From Desulfosporosinus sp. BRH_c37 (GTDB lineage Bacteria; Bacillota; Desulfitobacteriia; Desulfitobacteriales; Desulfitobacteriaceae): a stretch of 64,000 bases of DNA. Under the pieces are notes generated by a model. That model worked only from the letters and a program-made list of their open reading frames with translations, was not told where the DNA came from and made no database searches. Position 1 is the first letter of the stretch. Each line of letters begins with the position of its first letter. A program made the translations under genes and the position numbers. Below are positions 6,197-24,460 of this stretch, in pieces. Where the stretch lies: assembly GCA_001516045.1 (NCBI GenBank), contig LOEW01000303.1:1-64000 (forward strand), read 5' to 3'.

Positions 6197-6838
6197 TTAT
6201 TCGCTAGTATAATCCAGGGTTTGAAGTAAATTTCCAGAACTGTCGTAGGCCTTTAAGACTATCTTAGCACCGTTCGCCAGGCTGGCTACTCCCAGCTTGA
6301 ACGTATTTTTTCCCTGGTATAGCATGTTGGTACCGTCTACGCTGACAGAGTGTACCGTCGGATCGGTGGTAACGCTTATATCGGTCAGCAGGGTATTGTA
6401 TACTTTGCCGATAGACTGGATGTGAGCATCCTGAGTAATGATAAAGGGCATCACCAGCGGTTTAGACAGGGGAACGACCGTCTGGGCTCCGGAACCCCGG
6501 TAAACCCCGTTCGTCACATATAGCCAGTACTCATTTCCTAGTGTATATGGACTCACCGGTTTGATGCTCACTGTAGTATTATCACTGGAAATACTTAAGG
6601 TGACGGGCAGCGGACTGTTATTTGCGTCGACAATATAGATATTGTTGCTTCTTACCGTGTCAGTTGCCAGTAGGCCGCTGAATTTAACTGTCCAGGATTT
6701 ATTTAAGTCATTTGTAATCCTGGTATCCCAAACACTAAAACCAGAGGGTATGGGACCCGCCAGACAAACATTAACTATTCCGATAAGCATTGCCAACATC
6801 AAGGTGAGGATAAGCGCGATTCGGTATATTTTGTTCAT
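6197..6838 (-). CDS. Secreted SbsA-Ig-like domain protein
   Basis: 213 residues. A signal peptide (IALILTLMLAMLIGIVNVCLA) is followed by an SbsA-type Ig-like domain (about 28-130: GFSVWDTRITNDLNKSWTVKF... LYVTNGV... PLVMPFIIT). A second beta-rich part (about 135-213) contains the segment DISVTTDPTVHSVSVDGTNM. The first domain is clearly related to the N-terminal domain of the 439-residue protein at 12992-14311. The gene is 17 bp behind the giant repeat protein and probably shares its riboswitch-controlled transcript. Likely an extracellular or surface partner of that protein; function unknown. Confidence 0.75.
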   Translation of the reverse strand: MNKIYRIALILTLMLAMLIGIVNVCLAGPIPSGFSVWDTRITNDLNKSWTVKFSGLLATDTVRSNNIYIVDANNSPLPVTLSISSDNTTVSIKPVSPYTLGNEYWLYVTNGVYRGSGAQTVVPLSKPLVMPFIITQDAHIQSIGKVYNTLLTDISVTTDPTVHSVSVDGTNMLYQGKNTFKLGVASLANGAKIVLKAYDSSGNLLQTLDYTSE

Positions 6839-6855: not shown

Positions 6856-9800
6856 TTAGTTTAACGTGGTAACCGTGAGTTCATCAAGAGTGTACTGCAG
6901 CAAAATACTGCTGAACAGCTTGCTGTTAGAGATCAAACTCTGCAGGGTATAAGACCCTGCCAAGCTTTTAGACGACGCTCCCTTAGGTGGATAGGGAACT
7001 GTATTTCCCGCTGCAACCTTAACTGTAACTTCTTTTCCCAAACCAACAGTACATCCGGCATCACTAAAGGCGGCAAAGGTTATATCCGAATCATTCTCCA
7101 ACCCGGAAAAAGCCAGATTGAAAACACGCTTTTCTTTAACCACACTGAAGACACTACACGTGCGCACCACACCTCCAGCGTTAACAAGTATTGTGTTAAC
7201 CTCTGTTTCCGCATTAACATCGAGAGACGTGAATTTAGATGAACCCAACTCACTGTTAGCCATGTCAATTCTGTTGAGATATTTTTTGGGAACAGTCACA
7301 TAAATATTACTGGGTGAATGAATTCCATCCCCCAACAAGGTATCCAAGCCGCCGTCCTGCAGCAAGCTGTCCAGATTACCCTTGACCTCAGCTTTAATAG
7401 TTAAAGTCGGAGTGACTGCCAGGTCCGCCTTGGTTAGATTCAGTAATGCCTTGGGTATCTTGATGGTTATTACCTGATCTGAGGCAATATTATAGCCATT
7501 TACTGCTGGAATTGTAATGTTTATTATACTATCATTTGTTTTACTTAGCGCATTGATGTCGTTCTTAATGGTGGTTTTCACCAACGTCCACTGGTCGGTG
7601 TCCGCAGCGGCAGTAAAACTATCCAATAGTTTCACGAGGTTATTTCTGTTACTGATAATATCGCCTATCCAAGTATCGTTTAGTAAGGTAATAGTAACCA
7701 CGGACTTTGCCGTACCGGTTTTAATGTCCGTAACACTCAAGCTCGGGTCAAATGTAACTGTCGCCGTAGCTGGTGGCAAAGCTTCAGTATATATCTTGAA
7801 CGTAGGCGCCGCCAACAAGTCCTGGGCAGTAGGTAGTTTAAGCAAGTTCTTATTAATTGTAACAGTCACCGTCTGCCCGGTCGAGATAAAATAATCCGTG
7901 ACAGGAGGCAGGGTTATTGTCAGCACTGCGCCGGAAACTTTTATCTTACCTGTACTGTTTTTTAAAGCAGTTCTGATTTTTTGCCACTGTGGATCAGGGG
8001 TGCCAAGAGGATCACCGGTTGCTAAACGTATGCCCTCGATTAACTGATTGAACTTTAAGGCATTTGTAACAACATCGGAAGCCCATGTGCCTTTACTTAA
8101 GGTAATAATGATCGTCTTGCCGCCGGAAACTATATTGCTTTGAACCGTAGCCGCAGAAACAACAGTACCTGAAACTGCCGCCGTTACAGGGTATATGGTA
8201 AATGTAGATGAGATTAAAGGGCTGACTCCACTCCCAACAAGGTTAGCTGGTATAGTCGAAGTTATAGTTTGAGGAGCCGTAATATGGTAAGTTGGTGCTG
8301 CCGGCAAAGTTGCCGTAACTATGGCATCGCTAGTACGAACTATGGTTCCGGCACTCTTCAAAGCAGTCATAACTTCCGTCCACTGCGCATCCTCACCTGT
8401 GGCGCCTGAGGAGACAGTAAGGCTGTTAAGAAGTGAAATGTACTTCCCTAAATTAGAGGCAATATCGTATGCCCAAGTGTCATTAGATAATGTGAAAATA
8501 ATTGTATTGCCACCGGCTACAATGTTTACGTCGGCCGTGGGTAAAGTAGTGGTGCCAACAATGGTTCCAGTTATAGCCGCTGAAGACCCAGCTGGAGTAA
8601 CAGTAAATCCGGCTGGTGATGATGGGGTAAAATTATTATTTGACGTCAGGCAAAGAGCAGGTATATTGCTTAATTGTACAGACTGATTCGCAGTTATGTT
8701 ATAGGTCGTAACCGCAGGCAGGGTTATGGTTACAACGGTACCGCTAGTTCGAACTATGGTCGCCGAAGCTTTTAAAGCATCTATGACATCACCGTTCCAT
8801 TTGGCTGCCTCTCCACCGGCAGCTGCCAATGCGGAAAAGAGTGCCTGTCTCCGGTCTGTTTGCGTGGCGATGCCGCTATGCCAGGTGTCATTGCCCGGTG
8901 GGTTTACCAGAGTAACGATTATCGTTTTCCCGCCTTTGCGAATATCAGCTGCCGTTGCAGAGGTGATTGTTCCTGTAATGTTCACCGCACTGTCCGTCTT
9001 GATAGTAAAAGTTGAAGGAACCAAAGTAACCGTTCCGGATGTCTGAAGCAGAGACGAAGGAACACTAACGTTTATAGTCTGGTCAGCTGTTATGTTGTAA
9101 CTAGCGGTAATCGGCAAGGTAATAGTTAAAACATCGCCCGTGATTTCTAGAGGATTCGCCGCTGTTTTTAAGTTTCCTATTACTTTTGCCCATTCCGACG
9201 CTTCGCTTCCGCCGGCCGTCATATTATCAAACAAAAGGTTCTTCTTTGATGGAGTAGTTGTAAGGTCCGAAGCCCAAGAAAAGTCGGGGCCGGATAGAGT
9301 TAGGTTTATTGTTATGGTCTTAAAGCCTGCCCGGATTTCTGATTCGGTTATAAAATCGGGCGAGAGTTCGGCAGCACTTTTAATCTGATTCGCTACCAGG
9401 GTTATGTCGGCATATGCTTTAATTTTCCCGTCGTCGTCAGTTGCCAGTAGAATCAAATACTGATCGGCAAAAACATTTATATCCGAACCTGCTGTGTAAA
9501 CTGTTGTATCAGCTAAACTGCTGTCTAGCGCCGGCAGAGCAACTAAATCGACTTCCTGTATTTTATATCGCAACTTGGTTGCCCCTGTAATACTGGACAA
9601 GTTAAAGGTGATAATTTTAGTTGTGCCTGCTGCAGTACCGGATACAGGAGTTGAATAATTTGCTGGTGCAGTTAAATCATAGGCCCTAATATGGGCATTT
9701 GTTAACAGTATATACGTAGAAGCTTTTATCTTACCGGTGTCATCTGTTGCCAGGAGCACCAAACGCTGATCCTTTGAAGCGGGAATGTCAGCGTTAGGCG

Positions 9801-12333
9801 GATAATCTCTTGCTCCTGCCAGGTTACTGTCAAGCGTGGGGAGATCAAAATTAGTCGCCTGAAGCGCATACTGCCATTTTGTCGCTTCAGAAATTCCTGC
9901 CAGATTTGTTAAATTTGCTATTTTGGTTGTACCACCGGCTGAACCGGGCTCAGGTTCAGTGTAGTTCGTCGTTAAATTCAGCTGACCCGCCCTTATCTGG
10001 CCTGCGGTCAGGGTGATATCGACAAAGGCTTTAATCCAGTCATCAGCATCAGTAGCCAAAAGCACCAGATGCTGACCAGGTGAAACATTAAGTATATCTG
10101 TTCCAGCTGAATAATTTCCAAATCCGGCTACACCGGTATTGTCGGCATCCAGGGCCGGTGTTGGATAGGGGCTATTCTGCACTGCATAACGCCACTTTGT
10201 TGCCCCGCTGATTCCGGTTGGATCAAGGGGGGGGGTAATTTTGGTACTTCCCGGTGCAGTACCAGCTTCAGGAAGAGAGTAGTTGGCCGGTGTCGCCAAA
10301 ACGGCTGCTGCAGGAGTAGATTCGATATCTCCTGCTCCTACTACTAAATCGACAAAGCCTTTTATCTTGCCCCCGGTATCTGTCGCTAGAAGCATAAGAT
10401 GCTGGCCGGCTATAATTGGTATATCCGCGCCTTCAGTATATTCGTGAGCACCGCTCAATTCACCGCTCAAGGTGGAATCCAAACTCGGAACAATGAATGC
10501 ACCGGTCTTCACTTTATACCACCATTTGCTTGCTCCGATATCGAGTTGATCAGCTAAAGACCCTATTTTAGTATTACCCCCCGCGCCGCCGGCAACGGGA
10601 TTGGAATAATCAGTTCCACCGCCTATTAAATCTGCCGCTTTAATATATGACGCTAAAATACTAATATCGGCATAGGCCTTAATTCTGTCGTCCTCGTCAG
10701 TTGCCACGAGTATTAAGTGTCGATCTGCGGGGACAGTGATATCTGCACCTGTTGTGTAAACAGAATAATCTGGTGCTCCCGCCGTACTGTTGTAAACCGG
10801 TGCAGTAGTAGTTGTTAAGGCATTGACCTGAACTTTATACCGCCATTGTGTAGCCCCTAGAATTCCGCTTGTATTTAGAGCTGCTATTCGGGTATTTCCG
10901 CCTGCACTCCCTGGCACCGGAATTGAGTAATTGGCTGGTGTAGAAAGCTGGATACCGCTGCAGTTAATTTGTCCTGAGCCTATGGTGAGGTCGGCATATG
11001 CCTTGACGGCACCGCCGGCATCAGTTTCTATAAGCATAAGATGCTGGCCTGTCGTTATGGAGATATCCGTATTTACGGTATAATCCGCAAACCCAGTTAA
11101 TGTAGTAATGCCTAAAGGCGGGGGAGGGAAGTCGCTTGCCTGTACTTTATATTGCCATTTGTCCGTCACTGTAACAAGATTAAGTGTATTTATCTTGGTT
11201 GTTCCGGGTGTCAAACCGGGAACCGGTAACGAATAATTTGTTCCTACTTCCAACGATGCTGCCTCTGGTTCTATTTGCTCCCCTGCAATATGTAGATTTG
11301 CATACGCTTTAATTTTACCGTCATCGTCAATAGCTAATAGAAGTAAATGTTGGTTAACCGTGATTGGTATGTCTCCGCCTGGTGCATAATTAGGATTATC
11401 AACGTCAGTTAAAATGCTGTCAGCAGCAGGTACATATGTATCTGTGGCCGCTATCACTTTATACTGCCATTTGGTTGGTACCGTAAGCATGGTCGGTAAC
11501 TGGATTAAGGTCGGTAAGGTCAGTGTCGCGATTTTCGTTGTCCCTATCGCGGAACCGGGTACCGGATTTGAATAATGCGTTCCACCACCGGTTAAGTCTG
11601 CCGCCCGTGAACTGATTAACCCAGTTATATCAATGTATGCGTATGCCTTGACTAAACCTCCATTATCTGTCGCAAGAAGCAACAGGTGATCCTTACCTGC
11701 TGCAACAGGGATATCCGTATTAACCGTATAATTCTGAGCTAAAGCCAAAGCGCTACCTAGAGCTGGTGGTGCCATCGAACCGACCCCTAGAGTATACATC
11801 CATTTGGTTGCCCCAGAAATCCCGGTCGGGTTTAAGTAGGTTATTTTAGTCGTATTTGCCGCCTGGCCCTTGATTGGTGCAGAATAGTTAGTGGTTGATG
11901 TTAATAACCCAGTTATATCAATGTCTGCGTAGGCCTGGATTAGACTTCCGCCATCTATCGCTAGAAGCAACAGATGATCCTGCCCTGCTGCAACAGCGTA
12001 AGCCGTATCTTGCGTAAACACAGCCGTACCTCCTGGTAAAGCGCTGCCTAGAACTGGTACTGCAGACTGACCCGTCACTAGAATATACTGACAGCTGGTT
12101 GCCGCGGTCCCGGTCAGGTCTAAGATTTGTATTTTCACCGTCCCCGGATCCCCAGTTGGTGCAGAATAGTTAGCGGGCGATGTTAACATTGTCGCATCTG
12201 CAGCAAAAGCATTCTTCGGAGCTACTGCCAAAACCATAAATAAAATTCCCAAGCAGCATAAAAAATACAATCTAAGTCTTGATAGTTTAGTAGATAAGCT
12301 GGAACTTTTTTCACTTACATTTATTGACCCCAA
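6856..12333 (-). CDS. Giant secreted protein with nine plus five tandem repeat domains
   Basis: 1825 residues, function not recognised. Start is TTG 12333, 8 nt after GAGGAGG. A signal peptide (YFLCCLGILFMVLAVAPKNAFA) ends near residue 44. Then come nine repeats of about 100-115 residues (about 45-1010), each with the scheme NYS.P..G...TTKI..L...GATKW.YKVQ...LP.LDS......Y....DI....QHLLLLATD..GKIKAYADI. Five repeats of about 130 residues follow (about 1011-1670): I..GGKTIIITL...TW..D.....QW..V...LK... V.TITLPA...Y.ITA.QTI. The C-terminal part (1670-1825) is unique. No LPXTG or SLH motif is visible. Repeats differ enough to be old. A c-di-GMP-I riboswitch precedes it, suggesting a surface or matrix adhesin; that role is inferred. 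Confidence 0.85.
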   Translation of the reverse strand: MGSINVSEKSSSLSTKLSRLRLYFLCCLGILFMVLAVAPKNAFAADATMLTSPANYSAPTGDPGTVKIQILDLTGTAATSCQYILVTGQSAVPVLGSALPGGTAVFTQDTAYAVAAGQDHLLLLAIDGGSLIQAYADIDITGLLTSTTNYSAPIKGQAANTTKITYLNPTGISGATKWMYTLGVGSMAPPALGSALALAQNYTVNTDIPVAAGKDHLLLLATDNGGLVKAYAYIDITGLISSRAADLTGGGTHYSNPVPGSAIGTTKIATLTLPTLIQLPTMLTVPTKWQYKVIAATDTYVPAADSILTDVDNPNYAPGGDIPITVNQHLLLLAIDDDGKIKAYANLHIAGEQIEPEAASLEVGTNYSLPVPGLTPGTTKINTLNLVTVTDKWQYKVQASDFPPPPLGITTLTGFADYTVNTDISITTGQHLMLIETDAGGAVKAYADLTIGSGQINCSGIQLSTPANYSIPVPGSAGGNTRIAALNTSGILGATQWRYKVQVNALTTTTAPVYNSTAGAPDYSVYTTGADITVPADRHLILVATDEDDRIKAYADISILASYIKAADLIGGGTDYSNPVAGGAGGNTKIGSLADQLDIGASKWWYKVKTGAFIVPSLDSTLSGELSGAHEYTEGADIPIIAGQHLMLLATDTGGKIKGFVDLVVGAGDIESTPAAAVLATPANYSLPEAGTAPGSTKITPPLDPTGISGATKWRYAVQNSPYPTPALDADNTGVAGFGNYSAGTDILNVSPGQHLVLLATDADDWIKAFVDITLTAGQIRAGQLNLTTNYTEPEPGSAGGTTKIANLTNLAGISEATKWQYALQATNFDLPTLDSNLAGARDYPPNADIPASKDQRLVLLATDDTGKIKASTYILLTNAHIRAYDLTAPANYSTPVSGTAAGTTKIITFNLSSITGATKLRYKIQEVDLVALPALDSSLADTTVYTAGSDINVFADQYLILLATDDDGKIKAYADITLVANQIKSAAELSPDFITESEIRAGFKTITINLTLSGPDFSWASDLTTTPSKKNLLFDNMTAGGSEASEWAKVIGNLKTAANPLEITGDVLTITLPITASYNITADQTINVSVPSSLLQTSGTVTLVPSTFTIKTDSAVNITGTITSATAADIRKGGKTIIVTLVNPPGNDTWHSGIATQTDRRQALFSALAAAGGEAAKWNGDVIDALKASATIVRTSGTVVTITLPAVTTYNITANQSVQLSNIPALCLTSNNNFTPSSPAGFTVTPAGSSAAITGTIVGTTTLPTADVNIVAGGNTIIFTLSNDTWAYDIASNLGKYISLLNSLTVSSGATGEDAQWTEVMTALKSAGTIVRTSDAIVTATLPAAPTYHITAPQTITSTIPANLVGSGVSPLISSTFTIYPVTAAVSGTVVSAATVQSNIVSGGKTIIITLSKGTWASDVVTNALKFNQLIEGIRLATGDPLGTPDPQWQKIRTALKNSTGKIKVSGAVLTITLPPVTDYFISTGQTVTVTINKNLLKLPTAQDLLAAPTFKIYTEALPPATATVTFDPSLSVTDIKTGTAKSVVTITLLNDTWIGDIISNRNNLVKLLDSFTAAADTDQWTLVKTTIKNDINALSKTNDSIINITIPAVNGYNIASDQVITIKIPKALLNLTKADLAVTPTLTIKAEVKGNLDSLLQDGGLDTLLGDGIHSPSNIYVTVPKKYLNRIDMANSELGSSKFTSLDVNAETEVNTILVNAGGVVRTCSVFSVVKEKRVFNLAFSGLENDSDITFAAFSDAGCTVGLGKEVTVKVAAGNTVPYPPKGASSKSLAGSYTLQSLISNSKLFSSILLQYTLDELTVTTLN

Positions 12334-12603
12334 TCTCCATACCTCCTCTTTCTATATTAAGATTGATATTTCTGCATTCATTCCACTGTAAACAGATAAG
12401 CTCCGGGTTAATTAGTATGAACTGATCTTTTTTTACTTGTCTTAGCCATACGACAGGACAACCACCTCCATACCTTCAGCGACCGTTTTATAATCTGAGC
12501 GCTCTTTTCAAAGAAATATTTCACCACGGATAGCGGAATATCGGAACATTTACAACCGCCATATTTCCCCGATGAATATGCTTAAAAGTATATAACGTAA
12601 GTT

Positions 12604-12660
12604 TATACTTTCTGAATAGTACAAAATGACGGCTAGTTGCTTACTGCCGCCTTAATAATT
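12604..12660 (-). terminator. Possible terminator in the riboswitch expression platform
   Basis: Just downstream of the aptamer the minus strand reads GGCGGC-12 nt-GCCGTC followed by ATTTTGT. This short hairpin with a weak T-tract is in the right place for a transcription-control platform. Switch direction cannot be told by eye. The remaining leader (12334-12600) contains further dyads, such as GAAATAT/ATATTTC, but no gene. Confidence 0.45.
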
Positions 12661-12667
12661 CATAATA

Positions 12668-12752
12668 AGCAGCCTGGCAACCGTAGCTTTGCAAAAGCTT
12701 TAGGCCCATAACTTTGCGTCCCAGTTTTTCAACAGGTTTGCTCTAGCGCTTA
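12668..12752 (-). ncRNA. Cyclic di-GMP-I (GEMM) riboswitch
   Basis: The minus strand carries the GEMM-I hallmarks in order: GCAAACC, a short hairpin, CTGGGACGCAAAG, GGGCCTAA, a second hairpin (AGCTTTTGCAAAGCT), then GGTTGCC, closed by a P1 stem (AAGC...GCTT). A TATAAT lies just upstream at 12764-12769. It heads the leader of the 1825-residue protein and its 213-residue neighbour, so c-di-GMP level should set their expression. Confidence 0.92.
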
Positions 12753-12763
12753 TATTTCTTAAG

Positions 12764-12769
12764 ATTATA
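12764..12769 (-). promoter_or_regulatory. -10 box of the riboswitch-controlled operon
   Basis: Perfect TATAAT on the minus strand. A start site 6-8 nt downstream would fall just before the aptamer, which fits. The -35 region (about 12787-12792) is poor. Confidence 0.55.
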
Positions 12770-12934: not shown

Positions 12935-12963
12935 AAAAATCCCTCAACGTTGCAGAAGAGGGA
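12935..12963 (-). terminator. Rho-independent terminator after the 439-residue gene
   Basis: On the minus strand TCCCTC (12963-12958), a 12-nt loop and GAGGGA (12945-12940) are followed by TTTTT. Confidence 0.85.
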
Positions 12964-21447: not shown

Positions 21448-22200
21448 TCAAAACAAATTCTTCTTTTGTCGACTAAGTCTGCCTCTTAAGCGCAAGATCG
21501 CTTGGGAATGCAGTTGAGAAATCCTAGATTCGGAAAGTTTTAGAACTGCCGCGATCTCTTTCAAGGTGAGTTCTTCTTGATAATAGAGCGCAACCACTAA
21601 TTTCTCTTTATCGGGTAATTTTTCCACTGCAAAACCAAGGAGCCGTTTTTGTTCCTCTTTTTCTACCGCCTGAAACGCTTCTTGGGCATCGGTATCAATA
21701 AGCAAATTGAGTGGCGTACCACTACTGTCCCCTTCACCGTCTATTGTGGTTTCATCGAACGAGGTCAGTGTCAACATTTGGGCCTGGGCCAGAACCCCTT
21801 CTATTTCCCGTAGCTCCACTTTAAGTAAATCCGCGACTTCTTGCACCGTGGCTGCCCGTCCAAGTCGGTATTCCAACTCGGCAAAGCCATCTTGAACCCG
21901 CTTCACTTTCTGTCTTGCGGAATGAGGAACCCAATCCATGGTTCGGAGTCCGTCAATCATGGCACCACGAATGCGGATTGTTGCATATGTTTCAAATTTA
22001 AACCCCCGAGCAGCTTCAAAACGATCCAAGGCGTCCAGCAACCCGAAGACCCCATAGCCGATGATATCATCCTCGTCAATATGGGGTGGAAGGGACATCG
22101 CTAAACGACCCGCAATGCGCTTAACCAAAGGGAGGTATTGTTCAATTTGTTCTTGTTTCCACGGTCCGCGCGAAGCGGCTTCATATGCGTTTGACATCAA
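21448..22200 (-). CDS. sigD: RNA polymerase sigma factor SigD/FliA (sigma-28)
   Basis: 250 residues. Region 2 (LPLVKRIAGRLAMSLPPHID and DIIGYGVFGLLDALDRFE, ...FETYATIRIRGAMIDGLRTMDWVP) and region 4 (LPDKEKLVVALYYQEELTLKEIAAVLKLSESRISQLHSQAI) are complete and of FliA/WhiG type. It directs transcription of late flagellar and chemotaxis genes; two matching promoters are visible at 51248-51274 and 52147-52173. It sits downstream of cheC-cheD, as in Bacillus. Confidence 0.95.
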   Translation of the reverse strand: MMSNAYEAASRGPWKQEQIEQYLPLVKRIAGRLAMSLPPHIDEDDIIGYGVFGLLDALDRFEAARGFKFETYATIRIRGAMIDGLRTMDWVPHSARQKVKRVQDGFAELEYRLGRAATVQEVADLLKVELREIEGVLAQAQMLTLTSFDETTIDGEGDSSGTPLNLLIDTDAQEAFQAVEKEEQKRLLGFAVEKLPDKEKLVVALYYQEELTLKEIAAVLKLSESRISQLHSQAILRLRGRLSRQKKNLF

Positions 22201-23815: not shown

Positions 23816-24460
23816 CTAGACCAATCCCTTCTTACGCATTTCCCTCTGTATCTCAAAGACGCTACGAATAACTCGATCTCGTACTCGCTCAGCGAGGTCA
23901 TGGAATTCGGTTGAAACAACATACCGTTTACCATCGTCCTGTTTATCAGCTCGGCAGACGCGAAGTGGGGTCTGCAGTTCTCCGCCGGGCAGGGCTAATG
24001 AAGCATAAAGTAAAGACTTATTTTCCACAGGCACCACCGTCCAAAATCGAATTCCCCCACCACTTAAATCAAGCATAGTTCCTTGGTGACTATCGCTAAG
24101 TCCTTCCTTAGTCACCGATTGAAAGGTTAGAGGATAAGTAGCTGAAACTCTTACAAAGTTGCGGCGTTGAATTTTAGTTACTGTATCCGGCAAAGCAAAC
24201 ATGAACATTGGAATAGGAACCGCAATTCTCTGCATAATTTTTGCTTGAAAAGAATAAGCTGACACTTCGTCCCAAAAGGTCAGTTTAACCTTCGTCCCTT
24301 CCCGTAAAGGAATAAGCTCTCCATTTTGATACGGTGCACCAACTACGAGAATTTTCTCTCCAACTTCTTCGATTCGCGACCGATATACTCCTTCATACAC
24401 ACCTTCCAGTACATCAAGTTCCACAGGGAGCCCGAGTACAAGCTTCTTTTTATATGACAT
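23816..24460 (-). CDS. PilZ-domain c-di-GMP receptor, YcgR/FlgZ type
   Basis: 214 residues. N-terminal YcgR-N (PilZN) domain about 1-95 and PilZ domain about 97-205. The c-di-GMP contacts are present: RRNFVR (99-104) and DLSGGG (131-136). YcgR-family proteins act as a brake on the flagellar motor when c-di-GMP rises (YpfA/DgrA in Bacillus). Its place between flhG and cheC matches that role. Together with the c-di-GMP riboswitch at 12668 it points to a motile/sessile switch. Confidence 0.92.
   Translation of the reverse strand: MSYKKKLVLGLPVELDVLEGVYEGVYRSRIEEVGEKILVVGAPYQNGELIPLREGTKVKLTFWDEVSAYSFQAKIMQRIAVPIPMFMFALPDTVTKIQRRNFVRVSATYPLTFQSVTKEGLSDSHQGTMLDLSGGGIRFWTVVPVENKSLLYASLALPGGELQTPLRVCRADKQDDGKRYVVSTEFHDLAERVRDRVIRSVFEIQREMRKKGLV

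Follow-up and report, generated by a model that had tools for sequence, protein, structure and literature searches.

A c-di-GMP-I riboswitch with a variant pocket, predicted to act as an OFF switch, in the leader of a secreted SbsC-repeat protein gene of Desulfosporosinus

Class I c-di-GMP riboswitches (c-di-GMP-I, GEMM-I; RF01051) have been described ahead of genes of different function. In C. difficile, the switch Cd1 precedes flgB, and the functional class I switches are uniformly 'off' (PMC6366702). In B. thuringiensis, the class I switch Bc2, located before the collagen adhesin gene cap, is turned ON by c-di-GMP (PMC4933901). The GEMM-Ib riboswitches known from Geobacter bind 3',3'-cGAMP through a pocket defined by an A at the G20 equivalent (PMC8835794, PMC6274999, PMC7288161). 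The equivalence of positions used here follows work on Cd1, in which the Vc2 G20 equivalent is G11; its change to A had no large effect and did not abolish c-di-GMP binding, the nucleotide being a selectivity factor and not a hard filter (PMC9262584).

The locus described in this article lies in a stretch of 64 kb from Desulfosporosinus sp. BRH_c37, referred to as the window, and combines features of these systems. Orthologs of the flagellar gene next to it agree with the assignment to Desulfosporosinus. Its aptamer resembles Cd1 in the fold, the GAAA-type P2 loop, and the C92 equivalent, as well as in a terminator/antiterminator design read as OFF, but the G20 equivalent is an A, the T-tract is short, and the switch precedes a gene for a secreted SbsC-repeat protein rather than a flagellar operon. 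A20 and C92 are shared with the Geobacter GEMM-Ib switches, although the clade and the target genes differ. Like Bc2, it is a class I riboswitch expected to control the transcription of a surface protein, with Bc2 being ON and the window switch predicted to be OFF. A putative promoter shares the TAAAGTTT...CGATA motif with SigD/FliA late flagellar promoters, here represented by fliD (51274), from which it differs in a spacing one base longer, in CGATAC instead of CGATAT, and in the riboswitch-gated surface-protein gene that it would drive. The riboswitch is real and ordinary in kind; sequence analysis adds that its pocket has A20, that it is predicted to switch OFF, that a SigD-type motif is common to it and to switch-less homologs, and that a repeat lengthens the leader.

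Aptamer, target gene and gene neighbourhood

A cmscan search of the whole window against Rfam returned a full-length RF01051 match (model positions 1-87) at 12752-12665 on the minus strand, with 68.3 bits and E 3e-11 at a gathering score of 35 bits, which is the only match above gathering in the 64 kb. The preliminary description had read a GEMM-I core on this strand and had proposed this very search, and its reading is confirmed, as is the position of the switch ahead of a gene for a giant secreted protein. The GACGCAAAG element (A47) and C92 are kept in the alignment. The aptamer belongs to the 5' leader of a protein-coding gene read from that strand, and its end (12664) lies 331 nt before the TTG start (12333). 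Seven RF01051 matches were found in the source genome, two of which are weak (L006 and L007 on G000:C260 and C25, 49 and 43 bits); these have an altered core (GUAAAC, GACGCUAAA), lie ahead of ion-transporter-like membrane proteins, and possibly represent another variant pocket or contaminating contigs.

The predicted target (6856-12333, minus strand) encodes 1825 aa with a visible signal peptide and nine S-l_SbsC_C stretches, which are repeats of the SbsC S-layer C-terminal type (PF18316, E 1.5e-120), and the protein is presumably located at the cell surface. Directly behind it, a small secreted Big_5 protein is encoded at 6197-6838 (minus strand), which is also kept beside the giant homologs of two relatives, G026 and G008. 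A riboswitch was sought at both of these homologs, and no RF01051 match was found around either.

The gene order in relatives runs flgG - cheW - SLT - (big5) - membrane protein - (DUF362) - mecA - selA, and in the window the riboswitch, the giant gene, and the second Big_5 gene stand between big5 and the membrane protein gene. Another Desulfosporosinus, G028, has the same arrangement, in which big5 is followed by an A20 GEMM-I aptamer, a gene for a secreted SbsC_C-repeat protein, the membrane protein gene, DUF362, mecA, and selA. Its surface protein has 430 aa and four SbsC_C stretches (PF18316, E 3.3e-80) and is only ~26-30% identical to that of the window. Since these two loci have both riboswitch and target, whereas eight other loci with big5 and the membrane protein gene have neither, the two elements were gained or kept together. 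Two further loci encode unrelated secreted surface proteins in this slot, which follows the late flagellar operon and extends from SLT/big5 to the membrane protein gene (L041, 10034-11920; L043, 10334-12109); the one in L043 is preceded by a SigD-type motif.

Promoter candidates and predicted direction of switching

The TATAAT hexamer that had been noticed just upstream of the aptamer is present literally (12769-12764, minus strand), but it has no fitting -35, and the consensus promoter scan lists no sigma-70 site there. A better supported candidate is the SigD/FliA-type motif TAAAGTTT-N14-CGATA at 12852-12826 (minus strand). In its tight form, TAAAG[TC]3-N12-15-CGATA, a pattern formulated after the sites had been seen, the motif occurs at six distinct sites in 827 kb of locus sequence, and the reversed motif at none. 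Three of these sites belong to riboswitches, namely those of the window, of G028, and of G021, the last before a secreted transglutaminase/Big_2 protein, while the other three lie at fliD of the window, at the riboswitch-less giant homolog of G026, and at the gene for the secreted protein that fills this slot in L043. The giant homolog of G008 has a one-base variant, TAAAGTTT...CCGATG. fliD is a typical SigD target, and a gene for a SigD/FliA-type sigma factor is located at 21448-22200. A SigD/FliA promoter is expected to show a TAAA-N15-GCCGATAT-like motif upstream of the transcript; such a motif recurs at the orthologous and homologous loci and at fliD, but the looser pattern TAAA-N15-18-CGATA is not enriched genome-wide, with 339 occurrences against 384 for the reversed control. 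The case for placing the surface protein in the SigD regulon is therefore good but not conclusive, given this lack of enrichment and the post hoc formulation of the tight motif. Upstream, the flagellar operon is closed off behind its big5 gene by a terminator (12935-12963, minus strand; -10.4 kcal/mol, z -3.1, followed by UUUUU), which separates the riboswitch from it.

Behind the aptamer, the GGCGGC/GCCGTC hairpin pointed out in the preliminary description is borne out at 12651-12628 (-12.2 kcal/mol). With its arms GGCGGCAGU and ACUAGCCGUC and the following AUUUU, it forms an intrinsic-terminator-like element at 12623-12651 (minus strand), although the T-tract (ATTTT) is short and weak, and the hairpin is absent from the results of the strict terminator scan. 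An antiterminator is predicted at 12635-12682 (minus strand) that would exclude both P1/P3 of the aptamer and the terminator, pairing GGUUGC (12682-12677) with GCAACU (12640-12635) and GCUGCUU (12673-12667) with AGGCGGC (12652-12646). Of the duplexes that the 3' segment of the aptamer can form with the linker, it is the most stable (-17.6 kcal/mol), with nominal support only, as 40 of 1000 dinucleotide shuffles are as good; the G028 ortholog gives no significant result in this test (613/1000). In folding computed without ligand, the minimum free energy fold at a transcript length of 130 abandons the aptamer for an antiterminator related to the predicted duplex, while at 135 the now complete terminator prevails. 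The two structures are predicted to be mutually exclusive. At equilibrium, the fold with aptamer and terminator is preferred with or without ligand, and switching must therefore be kinetic.

The antiterminator is built from the terminator 5' arm together with the P3 and P1 3' strands, and for this reason a ligand that stabilises P1/P3 should favour termination, which makes the expression platform read as a predicted OFF switch. The opposite direction, in which the ligand raises adhesin output while a PilZ/YcgR protein lowers motility, was the implication of the preliminary description, which had suggested that one signal opposes motility and surface protein production. A YcgR-type protein (PilZNR + PilZ) is indeed encoded in the adjacent motility operon at 23816-24460, and Bc2 is a precedent for a class I ON switch before an adhesin gene (PMC4933901); an ON switch is nevertheless unlikely here, considering that the aptamer 3' strands are used within the antiterminator and that the SigD-type motif points to co-expression with flagella. 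The combination of an OFF platform with a SigD-type motif shared with fliD suggests instead that high c-di-GMP would lower both motility and the surface protein, which makes a model with opposite effects on the two less likely.

Pocket nucleotide and likely ligand

In the cmscan alignment, UAGAGCAAACC stands against the consensus AAaGGCAAAcc, and the conserved G right before the GC of P2 is replaced by A at 12742 (minus strand). This is RF01051 consensus position 11, which is taken, from the Vc2 sequence and the work on Cd1 (PMC9262584), to correspond to G20 of Vc2, and the nucleotide is treated here as determining ligand selectivity and not as a criterion of RF01051 membership. The preliminary description had missed this A; of the two grounds on which it had let the identification rest, the Rfam score stands, while the conserved G/A contacts are altered at G20. 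The G20 contact is common rather than universal. Among the seven RF01051 matches of the source genome, G is found in five and A in the window copy and the weak 43-bit match (L007), and in 46 family genomes, 21 of 150 strict-motif aptamers (14%) have A20 and 129 have G20, one of the latter matches appearing spurious. A20 pockets are thus not rare in the family. Additionally, tandem arrays of aptamers in the order A/G/A occur in two genomes.

These arrays consist of three c-di-GMP-I aptamers with A20, G20, and A20 pockets before secreted proteins (L127/L133, G069:C33; L132/L135, G021:C213). A different pair is found on the minus strand of G028 (L125, C4), where an A20 c-di-GMP-I aptamer at 1541-1452 and, after ~300 nt, a c-di-GMP-II aptamer at 1145-1062 lie upstream of a secreted protein, possibly forming a two-class tandem. 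The genes downstream of A20 aptamers in the family encode HD-domain proteins (PF13487, HD-GYP-like), methyl-accepting chemotaxis proteins, and secreted or surface proteins. The association with HD-GYP is not decisive for the ligand by itself, because cGAMP, too, can be a substrate of these enzymes.

With regard to synthesis, 33 GGDEF matches were found in the source genome (~94% complete), and all 27 readable motifs (six were unreadable) have the canonical Asp, with none showing the Ser in its place by which Hypr enzymes are recognised (PMC6456294, PMC7288161). One CD-NTase (SMODS) was found in the source genome. Its gene (L114, 505-3145; G000:C72) lies beside a gene with an HNH-like motif, read by eye, and the two likely form a CBASS-type defence pair.

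A GEMM-Ib-like switch responding to 3',3'-cGAMP, or to both cyclic dinucleotides, would agree with the combination of A20 and kept C92 (PMC6274999, PMC8835794), with the A20 of the orthologous G028 locus, and with the presence of a CD-NTase. This is quite unlikely, however, in view of the canonical Asp in all readable GGDEF motifs, the frequency of A20 in the family and its mixture with G20 in the tandem arrays, the adjoining HNH-type gene, as in defence loci, and the c-di-GMP binding that remained in Cd1 after the equivalent change (PMC9262584). The GGDEF survey and the mixed tandems, in particular, lower the probability of cGAMP as the main ligand; with A20 in 14% of family aptamers and in mixed arrays, this nucleotide alone is no signature of cGAMP. 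The switch is predicted to sense a cyclic dinucleotide, most likely c-di-GMP, as A20 is widespread in the family, A and G pockets are mixed in tandems, and no Hypr GGDEF is detectable. A very improbable extension is that the aptamer, through its A20, selects 3',3'-cGAMP and, together with the SigD promoter, forms a two-input gate on the surface protein; if true, it would mean a cGAMP-sensing GEMM-I switch in a sulfate reducer of Gram-positive lineage without a recognisable Hypr synthase.

Leader composition and proposed model

The length of the leader (~330 nt) had been given correctly in the preliminary description, but the leader does not behave as a conserved regulatory feature, having no counterpart in relatives and consisting partly of a dispersed repeat. 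A copy of this ~50-nt palindromic repeat, GTACTATCAGAAAGTATAAACTTRCGTTATATACTTTCTAAGCATAAG, occupies 12577-12626 (minus strand; core from 12622), and the repeat has ten or more matches in many Desulfosporosinus genomes; within three mismatches of its core, the window copy is the only one in the source genome. Of 40 copies that were read, 36 came after a tract rich in T (5 T or more in 9 nt), and 26 were also preceded by a hairpin of -8 kcal/mol or lower. The window copy likewise follows GCCGTCATTTT, and this position directly behind the tract, as at terminators, gives indirect support to the hairpin as a terminator. The repeat resembles a mobile element that is non-autonomous and inserts next to terminators. 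The copies read are L179-L218, among which the tandem units of L204 and L205 suggest a unit of ~112 nt ending in TTTTCTTT.

The remaining 243 nt (12334-12576, minus strand) are unique and contain the Shine-Dalgarno sequence AGGAGGT at 12347-12341. For 12334-12580, no match was found in 45 other family genomes, and a search of the leader against plasmid sequences gave none. A second structured RNA in the leader is rejected, as the leader folds no better than shuffled sequences (z -0.47) and the one further Rfam signal, Clostridiales-2 (E 0.44), is far below gathering. It is decidedly improbable that riboswitch and terminator lead nowhere and that a second promoter within the unique 240 nt of the leader serves the giant gene, for although a repeat usually found behind terminators sits between riboswitch and gene and the leader is long and unconserved, the sole same-strand sigma-70-like site is a chance-level 9/12 match inside the repeat hairpin, and in G028 the leader past the terminator is short and the same type of gene comes next.

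The favoured reading, which is reasonably probable, is a SigD-driven, transcriptional OFF-type c-di-GMP-I riboswitch in the 5' leader of the gene for the secreted SbsC-repeat protein. The transcript would begin at a SigD (FliA) promoter located ~70 nt ahead of the aptamer. As long as ligand is scarce, the linker and the terminator 5' arm would be paired with the P3 and P1 3' strands in the antiterminator, and the gene would be read. With ligand bound, most likely c-di-GMP, P1 and P3 would hold these strands, GGCGGC would pair with GCCGUC, and transcription would stop at AUUUU. The protein would consequently be made by flagella-building cells with low c-di-GMP.

The arrangement suggests a surface-protein gene that is switched on together with flagella and off by the signal. 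A large secreted protein of the S-layer type would thus be tied to the flagellar programme of Desulfosporosinus by two inputs, the flagellar sigma factor and a cyclic-dinucleotide riboswitch, and the predicted direction is the reverse of the common pattern of 'adhesin on, flagella off'.
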